A stretch of DNA of 50,288 bases. Source: Lactiplantibacillus plajomi (GTDB taxonomy: Bacteria > Bacillota > Bacilli > Lactobacillales > Lactobacillaceae). The stretch spans positions 1 to 50,288 of the forward strand of contig NZ_BJDZ01000019.1 of the NCBI RefSeq assembly GCF_005405405.1, given 5' to 3'. Shown here piece after piece: positions 1,649 to 9,705 of this stretch; position 1 is the stretch's first letter, and each line of letters starts with the position of its first letter. The position numbers and the translations under genes are program-made. Below the pieces are notes generated by a model that saw nothing but the letters and a program-made list of their open reading frames with translations, had not been told where the DNA came from and did not search any database.

Positions 1649-4639
1649 TTAATTGCGCTTACGCCGCTTAGCAGTCCCTAGCCAACCAAATGAAATGACT
1701 GCAAGTACCAGACCGAGAATTGCACTGATCCGGCCAGGTGCTTCGTTCGTTTGTGGTAATGCTTGCGCCGCCGCGGTAGCTGGCTTATTAGTTGTCGTAC
1801 TACCTAGACCGGTAGTTGCGTCACCGTTCGTCGTGGCCGTCGCGGAACTACCAGTCTGACTAGTGCCGGTACTTGCAGTACCACTGCCAGTAGTGCTACC
1901 GGTTGTACCGTTTCCAGGTGCCGGACTAGGGCTCGGCTCTGGCGTCGGTGCTGGGCTTGGCGTTGGTGCTGGACTTGGTTCGGGTTCTGGGCTTGGTGCT
2001 GGTGTTGGACTAGGTTCCGGACTTGGCGTCGGCGTTGGTTCAGGAGAAGGCGTTGGCTCCGGTGTCGGCGTTGGTTCTGGTTGAGGCGCCTGTGAATTTT
2101 CCGGACCGTAAACGTAGGTCACTTCCTGGTTACCCAGGGCAAAACTACCAGTGGCGTTTGCCGGATCCTTCGTGACTTCGAGGCCGGCGATGTTGGCCGG
2201 TTTAGTCGTGTAGGACTCACCAATTGTCCCAGTCAACGTTTCATCCGGTGCAACCTGGTTACCGTTTTGATCCACGTGGTGAACAGTAATTGTCCCGGTC
2301 GTGATTGCTTTGTAGTAGTAAGTGACGGTTTTTGCGGTGTCACTAAACGTCCCGGTAGTGTTATCGGAAGCGTGGTCAAAGGTGTAACCGGCGAATTCTA
2401 GTTCGGCGGTGACGTATTCATCGTTGTAAGCGCCGGTTAACGTAATTGGTTCGCGTAAGGCGTTACCATCCTGATCCAAGTATTCCACGGTGACCGGCTG
2501 TACGGTGGAAACGTACGTGTGGGTCACGGTTTGCGCGGTATCGGTAAACGTCCCGCTGGTTGGACCGTCCGTTTTCGAGAGCTTGTAACCCGGAATTTCG
2601 GCGGCTGACGCATAAAACGACTCGCCAACCAAGCCGGTCAAGGTTTTGGCCGGTTGTAGCGGCTTGCCATCGGCGTCGACGTAGTTAACCGTCACGTCCG
2701 CGGCGGCCGAACTGAGAATGTATGGTTGCAGGATGTAAAAAGCAGTGCCCGTACTATCAGTTCCCTTGGCAATCAGGTAGAAGTTGTGTTCCTGAGGCAC
2801 AACGTTTAGGGTCATGCCGCCAATCGTGGCCTGGCCGTTGGCATCCCCGGTGAAGCCGGGAATTTGGGTGACTAACTTGCCAAAGGTGATCCCGCCATCG
2901 GCACTCGGACTGACGTTGGCGTAATCACCCTGAACCGCTCCGGTCGAACCGTTAAAGTACAGCTTGTAGTAGTATTGACCATCCTGAGTGATTTGAATCG
3001 GTTGCGCAACCATGGCACTGGTGGTAAAGGTTGACTTACTACCGTCTGGCAGCAGGTAACCACTATTGGCTAAGGTTGCTTGGGGGTCAGCCTCGTTGAC
3101 GTAAATTGGTGCCTTGTAAATATATTGGTCGGTATATTCTTTGGTCGTCAGGTTTGGTAACTTACCCAAAACGGAAAGGTCGCTAATCTGGTTGAACGAA
3201 ACGTCGATGTCGGTTAAATTCGTTAAGCCCGCTAACGCGGAAATGTCTTGAATCCGGTTATGGGCAATATCCAAGTTCGTTAATTTTGTTAAGCCGGCTA
3301 AAGGCGTGATGTCAGTAACGTCGCCGTTGTAGTAACCGGCTGGCGAATTCATCCCCTGGTTTAACTTCAAGCTCGTCAGGTTGGTCGCGTATTGCAATCC
3401 TTCCAATGAGTAGGACGTTTTGCCATCAATATGGGTATCGGACCCGGTGAAACTGGTTAATAGTTGTAAGTCCGACTTAGTAATGTCACTGACCGAAGTA
3501 AACTGACGGTCGGGTAGGTTGAGTGCTTGTAAATTCGTTAACATGTCGGCCTGTAACAACTTATTCGGCATCCAAGTATCGATTGAATCGGTATCACCCG
3601 CAACCGGGGTAGGGGTCGCGGTTGCCGCACTTCCCGGCGTTGCCGTGGAAGCCGCGTATTCCGCCGCCTCAGCTGAATCTAACGCTTTGTCCGCAGTCAC
3701 TTGTTCATCTAACAAGCGGGCGACGGTACTCGTTAAGTACGGCTCGTCGGGAGTAGCGGGCGAAGCGCTGTCGTCGCTAGTAGTAGGTGCCGAGCTATCA
3801 GCGCTAGAAGCCGGAGTGGTGCTGCCAGCATCGCTGGAAGTAGGAGCCGAGCTATCAGCGCTAGAAGCCGGAACGGTACTGCCGGCATCGCTAGAAGTAG
3901 GAGCCGAGCTATCAGCGCTAGAAGCCGGTGCAGTACTGCCGGCATCGCTAGAAGTAGGAGCCGAGCTATCAGCGCTAGAAGCTGGTGTGGTACTGCCAGC
4001 ATCGCTGGAAGTAGGAGCCGAGCTATCAGCGCTAGAAGCCGGAACGGTACTGCCGGTATCGCTAGAAGTAGGAGCCGAGCTGTCAGCGCTAGAAGCTGGT
4101 GTGGTGCTGCCGGCATCGCTGGAAGTAGGAGCTGAGCTGTCAGCGCTAGTAGCTGGTGTGGTACTGCCGGCATCGCTGGAAGTAGGAGCCGAGCTATCAG
4201 CGCTAGAAGCCGGAGTGGTGCTGCCGGCATCGTTAGAAGTAGGCGCCGAACTGTCAGCGCTAGTAGCTGGTGTGGTACTGCCGGCATCGCTAGAAGTAGG
4301 AGCCGAGCTATCAGCGCTAGAAGTCGGTGCAGTACTGCCAGGATCGCTGGTAGCGGCCGGACTGGTCACACTAGTCGTGGTCGTGGATACGGATGTCGCC
4401 GGTGCTGCGCCCTCAGTGGAACCGGTTCCACTACTTGTCAGCGTTGTACTTGTTGAAGTTGACGTCAAATTGGTTGGCGCGTCGCTGGTCACAGCTGGTG
4501 AGCTGCTTGTGGGCGCGTCACTCGTTGCCGCAAGGGCGGATTGATTAGTTAAAATTAATCCGGCTAAAACGGTTGACGCTAAACCGGTTACGAGCCGGCG
4601 CTTTGTGGATTGTGTTAAACGTAATTGTTTTTTAGTCAA
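1649..4639 (-). CDS. LPXTG-anchored LRR/MucBP surface adhesin
   Basis: About 996 residues. Order from the N-terminus: signal peptide (LASTVLAGLILTNQSALA); Ser/Thr-rich stalk with ten copies of a 19-residue repeat (consensus SADSSAPTSSDAGSTTPAS, residues about 106-293); helical cap (WMPNKLLQADML); leucine-rich repeats (about 410-500); a spacer domain; three MucBP-like domains (about 650-850, each opening like VNYVDADGKPL); a Pro-Glu/Ser-rich wall-spanning region (about 853-913); LPQTN (about 964); hydrophobic helix; KRRKRN tail. This is the classic layout of a sortase-A substrate exposed on the cell wall; MucBP domains point to mucus or glycan binding. TTG at 4639, 11 bases after AAAGGAG, is the likelier start; TTG 4648 is also possible. 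It is paralogous to the truncated gene beside it. The ligand is unknown. Confidence 0.9.
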   Translation of the reverse strand: MTKKQLRLTQSTKRRLVTGLASTVLAGLILTNQSALAATSDAPTSSSPAVTSDAPTNLTSTSTSTTLTSSGTGSTEGAAPATSVSTTTTSVTSPAATSDPGSTAPTSSADSSAPTSSDAGSTTPATSADSSAPTSNDAGSTTPASSADSSAPTSSDAGSTTPATSADSSAPTSSDAGSTTPASSADSSAPTSSDTGSTVPASSADSSAPTSSDAGSTTPASSADSSAPTSSDAGSTAPASSADSSAPTSSDAGSTVPASSADSSAPTSSDAGSTTPASSADSSAPTTSDDSASPATPDEPYLTSTVARLLDEQVTADKALDSAEAAEYAASTATPGSAATATPTPVAGDTDSIDTWMPNKLLQADMLTNLQALNLPDRQFTSVSDITKSDLQLLTSFTGSDTHIDGKTSYSLEGLQYATNLTSLKLNQGMNSPAGYYNGDVTDITPLAGLTKLTNLDIAHNRIQDISALAGLTNLTDIDVSFNQISDLSVLGKLPNLTTKEYTDQYIYKAPIYVNEADPQATLANSGYLLPDGSKSTFTTSAMVAQPIQITQDGQYYYKLYFNGSTGAVQGDYANVSPSADGGITFGKLVTQIPGFTGDANGQATIGGMTLNVVPQEHNFYLIAKGTDSTGTAFYILQPYILSSAAADVTVNYVDADGKPLQPAKTLTGLVGESFYASAAEIPGYKLSKTDGPTSGTFTDTAQTVTHTYVSTVQPVTVEYLDQDGNALREPITLTGAYNDEYVTAELEFAGYTFDHASDNTTGTFSDTAKTVTYYYKAITTGTITVHHVDQNGNQVAPDETLTGTIGESYTTKPANIAGLEVTKDPANATGSFALGNQEVTYVYGPENSQAPQPEPTPTPEPTPSPEPTPTPSPEPSPTPAPSPEPEPSPAPTPSPAPTPEPSPSPAPGNGTTGSTTGSGTASTGTSQTGSSATATTNGDATTGLGSTTTNKPATAAAQALPQTNEAPGRISAILGLVLAVISFGWLGTAKRRKRN
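3777..4330 (-). repeat. Ten 57-bp tandem repeats in the adhesin stalk
   Basis: Period is 57 bp, seen for example between identical GCCGAGCTATCAGCG starts near 3846 and 3903. Each unit encodes 19 residues; variation is mostly at synonymous sites or in T/S, T/A/V and A/T swaps. Because the period is a multiple of three and no unit holds a stop, other frames also stay open here. Such arrays change copy number readily. Confidence 0.9.
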
Positions 4640-4797
4640 TCTAACCAAACTCCTTTATAATAGTAAATTAAACATTCACCCTCCTATGAACAGTTAAAGT
4701 ATATATCGAATTAGTTTATAAGTGGATTAAAAATCTTCATCATTAAATTTTCATTTAAATCTTAAGGATTAAACAACGCGGACTTATTAATCCAAAA

Positions 4798-7745: not shown

Positions 7746-8984
7746 CTATAACGGGGTAACACCGGCTTGGGAGTGAAGATTGACCGCTTTCTTCAAAATG
7801 TAGTTAACACTGCTAATACTAATGCCGGTCGCCGCCGCAATTTCACGGTAAGTTTTACCGTGCGCGTGCAGTTTTTTGACCAGCGCGTACTTGGCGTTGC
7901 GCCGTTGGTGACGGGTACGAACCGGGGCCGGCGCCGGTGGTAGTGGGGTGGCTAGCGGAACCGGCTGGGGAGTTTCGGTTGGGGCTTGCTGGTGCAGGCG
8001 GGCTAACTTCTGTAAGACGAGTTCAGTTGTCTGAACATCCCAGAGCGCGTTATGTTGGTTGGGGTTGGTTAGGTTGAAAATGGCGGCTAAGCCGTTCAAC
8101 GGTAAGTTGTGGTAGCCGTTCTTATGGTTACCGAGGTTGATGATCATGTTCGTGTAGGCTTGGGCGTCGAAAATGGTGACCGGTGTCGTTACGGCGTGCT
8201 GTTCACTCGGCGTTAGCTGGTCGTAGTGTTGTGCAATCAGGCGGCGTAAGTACTTGATGTCCTGGGTTTGGTCCCAAAAGACCAAGGGAAGCGCCGGTTG
8301 GAGGACCTGGTTAATAAAGGCCTTGATCACGGTCAACGGGTCGCCCTGGCGTTCGTACTGGGCAAGCGTTAAGCCGGTAGCGGCTAGGCCGGCAAGCTTC
8401 TTTTCTGGTAAGAAGTCGGGGTTATCGAAGTAGCGGTTAAAGAAAACGTTTGTCTGATGATGGCGATTAAAGCCAATCGCACTAAGTTGAAACACATTGG
8501 TTTTAAGTCCAGCGGCTTTCATCACCTGCCAGTTGATCGTATTGGGGGTGTTGGTGCGCCGGAATAAATTGCCAAATTCGCAGTCGATGATGATGTAGGC
8601 CGGTGGAATTGTCGTTGGGGCCGGTGCCGGCGTTAAAATGTTGGGTAGGTTGATCAGCCGTTGTTGGTCGCTGGTGGCCGCGTCTGGCAATATGTAACCG
8701 AATGATTGTAGAAATTCCTCGCAGGACGGTCCGATGGCGGCGTCACTGCAGGTCACCACTTTTTTAGGCGTCAGCACCATTTCGCTGCGACTAGCAAAAC
8801 TAATGTGGAACCGGTCGTGGTTGTCCAGTTCAATTGCGGTCACGTTACCAGCGTCGCCGTAGTGCTCGGCCGGCGTTAGCCGTTTGTCATGGTCAATCTG
8901 GTAGACCGGTCGGTTCAGCAGGTAAAGACAGTTGAGGTTGTTTGAAATTTTACGTTCGAGCATGGTGAAGGTCGTGGCAAACAT
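7746..8984 (-). CDS. DEDDh 3'-5' exonuclease fused to a C-terminal HTH, SOS-controlled
   Basis: 412 residues from ATG 8984 (AGGAG 8 bases upstream; GTG 8993 is unlikely). Residues 1-125 form an unrecognised N-terminal domain. Residues about 130-330 match a DnaQ-type DEDDh exonuclease: exo I IIIDCEF (Asp134, Glu136), exo II around VFQLSAIGF, Asp242 in the FWDQTQDIKYL segment, and exo III H-N-A-L-W-D (His311, Asp316). A Pro-rich linker (about 335-355) leads to a resolvase/sigma-like helix-turn-helix (YREIAAATGISISSVNYILK, about 379-398). The catalytic residues look intact, so 3'-5' nuclease activity on DNA or RNA is expected. It lies 49 bases after the small gene at 9034-9291 in the same transcript, whose promoter carries a LexA box. 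The combination suggests a DNA-damage-inducible nuclease. I do not recognise this domain fusion as a named protein. Confidence 0.8.
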   Translation of the reverse strand: MFATTFTMLERKISNNLNCLYLLNRPVYQIDHDKRLTPAEHYGDAGNVTAIELDNHDRFHISFASRSEMVLTPKKVVTCSDAAIGPSCEEFLQSFGYILPDAATSDQQRLINLPNILTPAPAPTTIPPAYIIIDCEFGNLFRRTNTPNTINWQVMKAAGLKTNVFQLSAIGFNRHHQTNVFFNRYFDNPDFLPEKKLAGLAATGLTLAQYERQGDPLTVIKAFINQVLQPALPLVFWDQTQDIKYLRRLIAQHYDQLTPSEQHAVTTPVTIFDAQAYTNMIINLGNHKNGYHNLPLNGLAAIFNLTNPNQHNALWDVQTTELVLQKLARLHQQAPTETPQPVPLATPLPPAPAPVRTRHQRRNAKYALVKKLHAHGKTYREIAAATGISISSVNYILKKAVNLHSQAGVTPL

Positions 8985-9033
8985 GCAAATCACTCCTCTA
9001 GTCTGGTTAAGTACATTGTAGCGAACTGCGGGG

Positions 9034-9291
9034 TCAACTGGCTAACGTTTGCACCGGCCGTCCAACCATGAATTTAGTAATGATGAATTGGTTGCGCCGA
9101 TTATAGTGACCGTAAAGCGCAAGCCGGGCGTTGGGTTGTAACTGGTATAGCAAGGTCAGCGCGTGACGCGTCACGAGGCAGTGAACGACTTGTTGTTCGG
9201 TAAGCCGTCCGCGGACGTAAACTAGGAGCGGGTCGTAGCTAATGATTTTAAATTGGTTGTTATATTGAACCGTTAGTGGTTGTTGTCGCAT
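9034..9291 (-). CDS. Small OB-like protein, first gene of SOS operon
   Basis: 85 residues from ATG 9291, preceded by GAGGTGATC, an extended match to the 16S rRNA 3' end. The product is basic and beta-strand-rich: alternating strands (LTVQYNNQFKIISYDP, LLVYVRGRL) followed by RLALYGHYNRRNQFIITKFMVG, whose strand-turn-strand with aromatic and basic residues resembles an OB-fold nucleic-acid-binding surface. That fold is an inference. No catalytic motif is visible. It is translated first from the LexA-controlled promoter and precedes the DEDDh/HTH gene, so it may help that nuclease bind nucleic acid. Not recognised as a named family. Confidence 0.7.
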   Translation of the reverse strand: MRQQPLTVQYNNQFKIISYDPLLVYVRGRLTEQQVVHCLVTRHALTLLYQLQPNARLALYGHYNRRNQFIITKFMVGRPVQTLAS

Positions 9292-9309
9292 GGTGATCAC
9301 CTCAAAATC

Positions 9310-9338
9310 ATTACACGAACACTTGTTCGTTTTTGCAA
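9310..9338 (-). promoter_or_regulatory. LexA/DinR (SOS) box inside a sigma-A promoter
   Basis: Reading the minus strand: -35 TTGCAA (9338-9333), a 17-bp spacer, then -10 TGTAAT (9315-9310). The spacer contains the palindrome CGAAC-ACTT-GTTCG (9316-9329), with flanking A and T extending the arms to 6 bp. This fits the Gram-positive SOS consensus CGAAC-N4-GTTCG. A repressor bound here would cover the promoter. The predicted leader is only about 10 bases and runs straight into the GAGGTGATC ribosome binding site of the small gene. Confidence 0.85.
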
Positions 9339-9504
9339 GTCTAAAGCTGCCGTTTTAAATTAAGTGTGGGGCTGGTTTTCGGTGACTGGTGGGGTGATGG
9401 CGCTTAAAAATACGAACAAATCGAAAAACTTACGGGGAAAAAGCTACAAAAAATGGTCTAGACTTGGTATGATAAAATCTGGATAAATGAAAGGAGGCCT
9501 TGCC

Positions 9505-9705
9505 ATGGAGCGTGGACGACGCGCAACGTTAGAAGAACGGATCGCCATCGTGAAGTACACGTTGGCCCATGATAACAATTACCAGCAGGCAGCCGACCGG
9601 TTTAACGTCTCCTACCCGCAAGTATATACTTGGGTTCGCAAGTACCGTCAAAGCGGCATGGAAGGCTTGGTAGATCACCGGGGCCGACCAAAACAGGCTA
9701 AGTGA
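9505..9705 (+). CDS. Stand-alone IS3-OrfA-like helix-turn-helix protein
   Basis: 66 residues from ATG 9505, 7 bases after AAAGGAGG. The sequence RRATLEERIAIVKYTLAHDNNYQQAADRFNVSYPQVYTWVRKYRQSGMEGLVDHRGRPK is a single Tn3/IS3-type HTH as found in IS3 OrfA. There is no OrfB behind it, no inverted repeats, and it has its own ribosome binding site and terminator, so it looks like a domesticated or orphan DNA-binding protein rather than a live transposase. It is divergent from the SOS operon; the two start regions are about 200 bases apart. Its targets are unknown. Confidence 0.7.
   Translation: MERGRRATLEERIAIVKYTLAHDNNYQQAADRFNVSYPQVYTWVRKYRQSGMEGLVDHRGRPKQAK

Follow-up and report, generated by a model that had tools for sequence, protein, structure and literature searches.

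Which of the two genes behind a LexA operator in Lactiplantibacillus plajomi is the conserved SOS (DNA damage response) gene, and what might its product do? The operator and the two genes, termed here gene A and gene B, lie in a 50,288-nucleotide (nt) stretch of DNA (contig NZ_BJDZ01000019.1; the window, for short) from a 2.76-Mb genome assembled into 77 contigs. Read along the minus strand, the LexA box comes first, followed by gene A, gene B and the dipeptidase gene pepD; beyond the LexA box a gene for a 72-amino-acid (aa) helix-turn-helix (HTH) protein and recQ lie on the other strand. The features concerned are the following.

9310..9338, minus strand: promoter, with -35 hexamer TTGCAA (9338-9333), a 17-nt spacer and -10 hexamer TGTAAT (9315-9310); from the sequence and from congeners.

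9316..9329, minus strand: LexA (SOS) operator CGAACAAGTGTTCG, which occupies most of the promoter spacer; read in the sequence and conserved in congeners.

9034..9291, minus strand: gene A, for an 85-aa basic protein with a predicted oligonucleotide/oligosaccharide-binding (OB) fold and the signature GHYNRRNQ; from profile, model and alignment.

7746..8984, minus strand: gene B, for a 412-aa protein with an unrecognised N-terminal domain, a DEDDh-type core, a Pro-rich linker and a C-terminal HTH; from alignment and profiles.

Judged by sequence comparison, the conserved SOS gene is gene A, not gene B. As for its product, we lean towards an SOS-induced mini OB protein resembling the single-stranded DNA-binding protein (SSB), which would probably bind single-stranded DNA (ssDNA) and work alongside repair enzymes that are exchangeable, the one here being a predicted 3'-5' exonuclease. 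The operator (9329-9316) is a perfect CGAAC-N4-GTTCG inside the TTGCAA/TGTAAT spacer, and it is the only exact match to that pattern in the window. It is thus an operator of the Gram-positive form that overlaps a promoter, of the same type as the recA and lexA boxes of this genome. Genome-wide, we counted four exact sites, and six for a reversed control pattern; as the count does not exceed its control, it is no proof by itself, and we dropped it as evidence and tested conservation instead. One of the four exact sites is the recA promoter (CGAACTTTTGTTCG on the recA coding strand; locus L001), which served as a positive control, and no recognised SOS gene was found at the remaining two (L002 and L003). 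A second positive control is lexA of the same genome, with a box-like site (CGAACATTTGTTTG, one mismatch) near its start. Two Y-family polymerase genes, whose naming as dinB-like or umuC-like is our reading, have box-like sites near their starts as well (AGAACACATGTTCG and CGAACGTACGTTTC, with one and two mismatches, respectively), the latter being weak because two further two-mismatch matches occur in the same locus.

Conservation of the box was assessed at gene A in other genomes. Each of the 15 genomes sampled from the same genus has one gene-A locus with [AC]GAACNNNNGTTCG, directly followed by the -10 hexamer (TATAAT in 11 of them); a second gene-A copy in genome G287 carries CGAACGTATGTTTG, and gene A is broken in G038 and G211. 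Across the sampled family, gene A was found in 44 of 301 genomes, at 47 places. A box with at most one mismatch lies within 160 nt upstream at 43 of these 47 places, and a box with two mismatches at one more, compared with 3 of 678 control windows (at most one mismatch) elsewhere in the same loci. Three places have none (L056, L066 and L068), and in L056 a box instead precedes the open reading frame (ORF) before gene A. The family loci share ancestry, so these boxes are not independent events. The operator is nevertheless conserved at the homologous gene in other species, and on the strength of the boxes within the genus and of 43/47 against 3/678 we take it as real. The original prediction, an earlier reading of this DNA, had placed a LexA palindrome between TTGCAA and TGTAAT; direct reading and conservation in congeners and in the family confirm it. 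LexA control of the operon is very likely, and LexA would be expected to bind at the box.

Beyond the family, a profile search found gene A in 91 of 295 Lactobacillales genomes, from 33 of 74 genera; at the level of the class, 5 of 378 genomes match at E ≤ 1e-5, four of which belong to the order. Outside the family we examined 84 of 128 listed gene-A places (134 in all), and some copies counted as chromosomal may be prophage-borne. In genus g21, boxed gene A is divergent to an ORF with a dnaG pattern at nine family loci (L042, L043, L045-L050 and L054).

Gene A is also carried by phages. A tblastn search found it in 12 records of Latilactobacillus and Enterococcus phages, 10 of which label it a hypothetical protein and 2 of which leave it unannotated, and three scans of viral contigs gave 10, 27 and 8 loci, while four of the seven viral scans, including one with the window gene A, found no relative. 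Among viral loci with at least 100 nt upstream, a box was present at 30 of 31 with up to two mismatches and at 26 of 31 with up to one, counts in which many loci are near relatives and which exclude the partial matches L116, L117 and L125 and any locus that starts no more than 15 nt from gene A; L123 and L124 come from a single contig that has two copies. Box distances from gene A were, for example, -33, -44 and -54. Five records were inspected closely: in four of them an integrase gene is found near gene A, and in the fifth, which is an L. plantarum plasmid, there is none nearby. Gene B had no match in the phage records. Two further observations concern the neighbours of gene A. A TIR-domain protein is encoded after it in an Enterococcus phage (L091:2041-2883 and phage EFC-1, L060), and another small ORF, marked by a YYY[NT]R motif, lies beside it both in the umuC operon of genus g26 (L056:1077-1451) and in phages (L085:4300-4581, L081, L083, L084, L086, L089 and L090). 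By eye the YYY[NT]R ORFs of the g26 operon and the phages look related, and no family was found for them.

Gene B is distributed far more narrowly. It was found in 20 of 301 family genomes (11 of the 15 of the own genus, six of genus g16, and one each of g3, g21 and g34) and in 4 of 295 genomes of the order sample, all within the family. The original prediction had proposed conserved pairing of the two genes across Lactobacillaceae as a check, and within the genus such pairing holds: gene A and its box lie directly upstream of gene B in 11 of 11 cases. At the nine loci in other genera it fails, with gene A upstream in none and a box of at most one mismatch in L021 only, leaving eight without. 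A conserved two-gene system centred on the nuclease is therefore not supported, and gene B was rejected as the core of the system on account of its narrow distribution and its unpaired loci in other genera. Homologues that never occur together, or that lack the box, are largely what we observed for gene B outside the genus, and not for gene A. Loci L021 and L024 end at contig edges, and their genomes (G111 and G151) gave no gene A match; five of the nine other-genus gene-B genomes have gene A elsewhere. The gene B of L021 (G111, genus g16) has a LexA-like box of its own, CGAATGTATGTTCG, and the C-terminal HTH region is missing from its open frame.

Enzyme genes other than gene B follow gene A elsewhere. 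UmuC is encoded directly after it in L056 (g26), as confirmed by Pfam; unless Pfam is cited, UmuC, YolD and UvrC neighbours were identified by short patterns or by eye (L198, L087 and L088). On this basis gene A precedes YolD in L156 and in phages L087 and L088 (by reading) and in L150, L161 and L188 (by pattern), UmuC-pattern ORFs in L156, L185 and L187, and UvrC-pattern ORFs in 9 of the 84 order loci. In genus g54, gene A behind a box (GGAACGTTTGTTCG) precedes a 187-aa DEDDh exonuclease of the Pfam family RNase_T (L192), with a near-identical ORF in L193; this exonuclease is of a different family from gene B.

In many genomes, boxed gene A has no gene B behind it (e.g., L036, L040 and L042-L054), and hence gene A must be capable of functioning without gene B. 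This finding, together with the SSB-like fold described below, would also suit a role in which gene A modulates RecA or SSB, limiting or shaping RecA filaments and damping SOS or recombination, with gene B merely co-transcribed. We regard such a role as rather unlikely: the repeated place of gene A directly ahead of repair enzymes suggests work with enzymes instead, and no RecA-modulator match is listed in Pfam among 35 members of the gene A family.

The gene A protein has an isoelectric point (pI) of 10.4 (family median, 9.5), and an AlphaFold2 model built from 23 sequences, with a predicted local distance difference test (pLDDT) score of 81.7, is beta-rich, with the strand order b1-b2-b3-a-b4-b5 of OB topology. 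The 50 PDB matches listed by Foldseek for this model include Rim1, SSB, SsbA, SsbB, PriB, RPA and Stn1 (TMq 0.53-0.73, best E 6e-3), and phage SSBs are among its matches in BFVD. The first product had been described as small, basic, beta-rich and OB-like, and the 85-aa length, the pI, the model and its SSB, Rim1 and PriB neighbours all agree with that description. At the level of sequence, HHalign of a 35-row gene A family against SSB gave a probability of 67 (E 5e-5), compared with 0.2 for a control against gene B. The Pfam SSB family (PF00436) matches 8 of 35 relatives at E ≤ 1 (best, 6e-5), the five printed scores all lying under the 26-bit Pfam cut-off, and the tRNA_anti-codon OB family matches 3 of 35. 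In scans with printed scores, gene A matched no Pfam or NCBIfam family at cut-off, and the 35-member tallies gave weak best E-values only; a PDB sequence search found no match, and phrog_15227, a PHROG cluster of unknown function, matches residues 13-78 (E 1.3e-9).

In an alignment of 129 of 131 gene-A places (two broken copies dropped, near-identical rows kept), N64 is present in 129 of 129 rows, Q68 in 99%, R66 in 86% and G61 in 88%. N64, R66 and Q68 form part of the beta4-beta5 loop of the model, a loop by which OB proteins commonly contact nucleic acid. We thus hold with fair confidence that the modelled protein has an SSB-like OB fold, and from the predicted fold and the conserved loop it probably binds ssDNA. 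Two assignments were rejected. Gene A is not a regular SSB, given its scores below cut-off and its lack of an acidic tip; nor is it YolD, as no YolD model is among the 10 Pfam families listed for the 35 members and a separate YolD ORF adjoins gene A in L156.

For gene B, the original prediction of an unrecognised N-terminus, an intact DEDDh nuclease and an HTH is supported, as an architecture, by a 21-row alignment and by HTH matches. All 21 rows have D134, E136, D242 and H311, and 20 have D316, so that the catalytic set is complete and in order (DxE...D...H-x4-D) in 20 rows from five genera, though identity to the window protein drops to 25%. The alignment comprises 21 of 23 rows, L025 and L027 being omitted because L006 and L009 already represent their genomes; L026, although very similar to L006, is a record of its own. 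Profile matches are weak (PADLOC DEDDh, E 2.4e-5; phrog_192 exonuclease subunit, E 1.3e-4; DEDDh_C in 4 of 18 members, best E 0.015). The C-terminal HTH (about residues 365-400) is well supported, and a PDB sequence search returned HTH proteins, one weak exonuclease match (QIP, 4wbq, E 0.022) and weak unrelated matches. For the N-terminal ~115 residues we found no convincing match; from the open frames, this part may be duplicated in L023 and L024. AlphaFold2 with four sequences gave a pLDDT of 49.6, too poor for a fold search with the model. Gene B is thus predicted to encode a metal-dependent 3'-5' exonuclease with its own DNA-binding HTH.

It is conceivable, though in our view decidedly unlikely, that gene B acts chiefly as a DNA-binding regulator or as an RNA 3' exonuclease, rather than using its nuclease core on DNA during SOS. 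Of its domains the HTH has the best support, its sole weak exonuclease neighbour in PDB is QIP, which we take to act in RNA silencing, and in one of the 21 rows (L013), possibly an inactive version, the last catalytic Asp is replaced by G (HNALWG). The retention of all five catalytic positions in 20 of 21 rows, at the identities given above, argues against this alternative.

On the reading that we prefer, the system would work as follows. LexA bound in the promoter spacer would block RNA polymerase; upon damage, RecA-ssDNA filaments would trigger self-cleavage of LexA, and genes A and B would be made from one promoter. This step follows from established SOS biology and from the conserved box, and the later steps are inference. 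The gene A protein, apparently a distant SSB relative, would bind ssDNA via the conserved N-x-R-x-Q loop between beta4 and beta5, coat or mark short ssDNA, and serve as an accessory factor for a partner enzyme on damaged DNA or ssDNA-containing forks, whether through physical contact or in function. The partner would vary by lineage, namely, a Y-family polymerase with YolD, UvrC, or a DEDDh exonuclease, and in Lactiplantibacillus it would be gene B, which may trim 3' ends or ssDNA. A bolder version, which we put forward only tentatively and consider doubtful as a whole, is that gene A founds an undescribed family of SOS-induced mini SSB-like proteins of Lactobacillales and their phages, that is, a plug-in ssDNA adaptor for lineage-specific damage enzymes.

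Sequence divergence bears on a third alternative. Within the genus, identity to the window is 53-66% for gene A (12 other intact copies) and 41-68% for gene B (10 others), compared with 76-96% for the HTH gene and, for N-terminal fragments, 88-95% (recQ) and 89-96% (pepD); genes A and B diverge faster than their neighbours. Median identities over all pairs are 65% for gene A (78 pairs) and 45% for gene B (55 pairs), and gene B is 68% identical in L026 (L. xiangfangensis) and 55% identical in L027 (labelled L. plantarum EGD-AQ4). In the closest pair (G172/G193), the nonsynonymous (dN) and synonymous (dS) divergences of gene A are 0.005 and 0.33, respectively, indicative of purifying selection; silent sites are at or near saturation in the other pairs printed. 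The low conservation relative to recQ and pepD, the patchiness of gene B, and the presence of gene A on phages, with a TIR protein behind it in one Enterococcus phage, could point to a damage-triggered, fast-evolving cassette for defence or prophage conflict, in which gene B would attack invading DNA or that of the cell itself, and gene A would protect host ssDNA or direct the nuclease. We consider this very unlikely. The neighbours in the genus are stable rather than island-like (within ~1.5 kb on each side at 15 loci: HTH gene in 15, pepD in 14, G172 being the exception, and recQ in 12), purifying selection acts on gene A in the only highlighted close pair with unsaturated silent sites, PADLOC returned only a generic CRISPR-associated DEDDh model and weak matches, and the TIR pattern occurs 3' of gene A in 1 of 42 viral loci.

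Several observations weigh against a LexA-controlled, SSB-like gene A that works with gene B and other repair enzymes. (i) Outside the family, a box with at most one mismatch was found at just 29 of the 84 gene-A places (36 with up to two mismatches; controls with up to one, 16 of 1,706), and none of nine UvrC-linked copies has a box with up to two mismatches; LexA control is therefore not universal. (ii) LexA (E ≤ 1e-30) is encoded in 90 of 91 gene-A genomes of the order sample, the exception being G479, whose assembly is 89% complete and carries a partial LexA match at the end of a contig, and the source genome has lexA; LexA is also encoded in 151 of 204 gene-A-negative genomes (241 of 295 in all), and a single family (f4) accounts for 15 of the 20 LexA-negative genomes listed. 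Since LexA is common and ancestry confounds the comparison, the association of gene A with LexA across genomes is weak. (iii) Four of the 15 own-genus genomes lack gene B, and two of these four keep gene A intact. In G273, pepD directly follows gene A; in G038 and G211, which have the broken copies, pepD lies just downstream, and in G172 a different gene does. Taken with the unpaired gene B of other genera, this patchiness implies that an SOS gene already in place either gained gene B or lost it. (iv) A promoter-like site just 5' of gene B (9044-9015, minus strand; TAGCCA, 18 nt, TACAAT; 9 of 12 matches) could leave room for separate transcription of gene B; a promoter scan found 2 sites in the region versus 1.8 in shuffles, so this site is at chance frequency. 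(v) The second DEDDh pairing, in L192 and L193, comes from one genus and may be due to chance. (vi) For the gene A model, Foldseek found no PDB match at E ≤ 0.001 and also lists OB domains of archaeal PolD, TiaS, RecO and tRNA synthetases. The window protein itself matches no SSB model, a narrower 23-row alignment reached 14.5% probability against SSB, and the SSB-type acidic C-terminal tip is absent, the tail being GRPVQTLAS. (vii) For gene B, HHalign against DEDDh domains of the PolC, DinG and DnaQ type gave 17.6% (E 0.0014), in a collinear alignment that includes HxAxxD (exo III), with 0.1 for a control against SSB; no exonuclease profile matched at the Pfam or NCBIfam cut-off, nor did Pfam RNase_T at E ≤ 1.

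Both genes were compared with known systems. Bacterial SSB (PF00436), PriB and mitochondrial Rim1 resemble gene A in predicted OB topology, as Foldseek neighbours and in the profile match; unlike the SSB family, gene A has only 85 aa, no acidic tip and an SOS box, and its conserved NxRxQ loop was not seen in 10 SSBs aligned. It exists beside the two regular SSB matches of the genome. The phage cluster phrog_15227 is recorded as of unknown function, and its record is silent on chromosomal copies, LexA boxes and operon partners. SOS operons of the yolD-umuC (yqjW/uvrX) type are similar in that boxed gene A precedes yolD- and umuC-like ORFs in L156, whereas in the window the partner of gene A is an exonuclease rather than a polymerase; gene A is moreover distinct from YolD, which is predicted to be SH3-like (PMC6511836). 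With DEDDh 3'-5' exonucleases (DnaQ/epsilon, DinG and PolC exo), gene B shares DxE, D and HxAxxD in that order, and it differs from them in an insert after exo I, an extra N-terminal domain and the C-terminal HTH. PrgE of the Enterococcus plasmid pCF10 is likewise a small Lactobacillales OB protein unlike prototypical SSB and, unlike gene A, lies in a conjugation operon (PMC11137577). A reconstruction of the Lactobacillaceae LexA regulon comprises 13 operons and names parEC, addBA and nrnA as novel functions (PMC3616900, in part). We recognised no description of gene A or gene B in the literature, with the qualification that the regulon tables of that paper, accessible in part, may already list gene A. 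What appears to be new, as judged from the sequences, is the unusual SOS setting in which an SSB-like OB protein is combined with a DEDDh nuclease. The original view of a module outside the classical SOS genes is supported.

The remaining details concern the window. Gene A starts at ATG 9291 behind a Shine-Dalgarno sequence GAGGTG (9303-9298), and gene B at ATG 8984 behind AGAGGAG (8999-8993); the latter start replaces a GTG ORF start at 8993. The gap between the two genes is 49 nt, with no terminator-like site in between. The operon promoter was not listed by a generic promoter scan, which demands A at position 2 of the second hexamer. The divergent 72-aa protein (9487-9705, plus strand) is a stand-alone HTH_28 protein with a transposase-type HTH and no catalytic part; its gene is present at 15 of 15 own-genus loci (76-96% identity in the 14 others), and it is possibly a regulator or a domesticated transposase fragment. 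Farther away (1649-4648, minus strand), an ORF encodes a large Ser/Thr/Pro-rich surface protein with leucine-rich repeats and an LPQTN-type anchor at its end, the repeat modules of which resemble MucBP by eye.

SOS regulons are thought to be well charted, yet gene A is preceded by a LexA box in much of the sampled family, in phages and in parts of the order, and it has no curated family name, which points to an overlooked damage-response gene. Its exonuclease partner, gene B, would be a non-classical SOS nuclease. If the adaptor reading is true, SOS cells and induced prophages would coat or mark damaged ssDNA with a special protein rather than with ordinary SSB, and its partners would be a Pol V-type polymerase, UvrC and two unrelated DEDDh exonucleases. 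If gene A binds ssDNA and serves exchangeable repair enzymes, it would be a new component of damage tolerance, mutagenesis and prophage induction.

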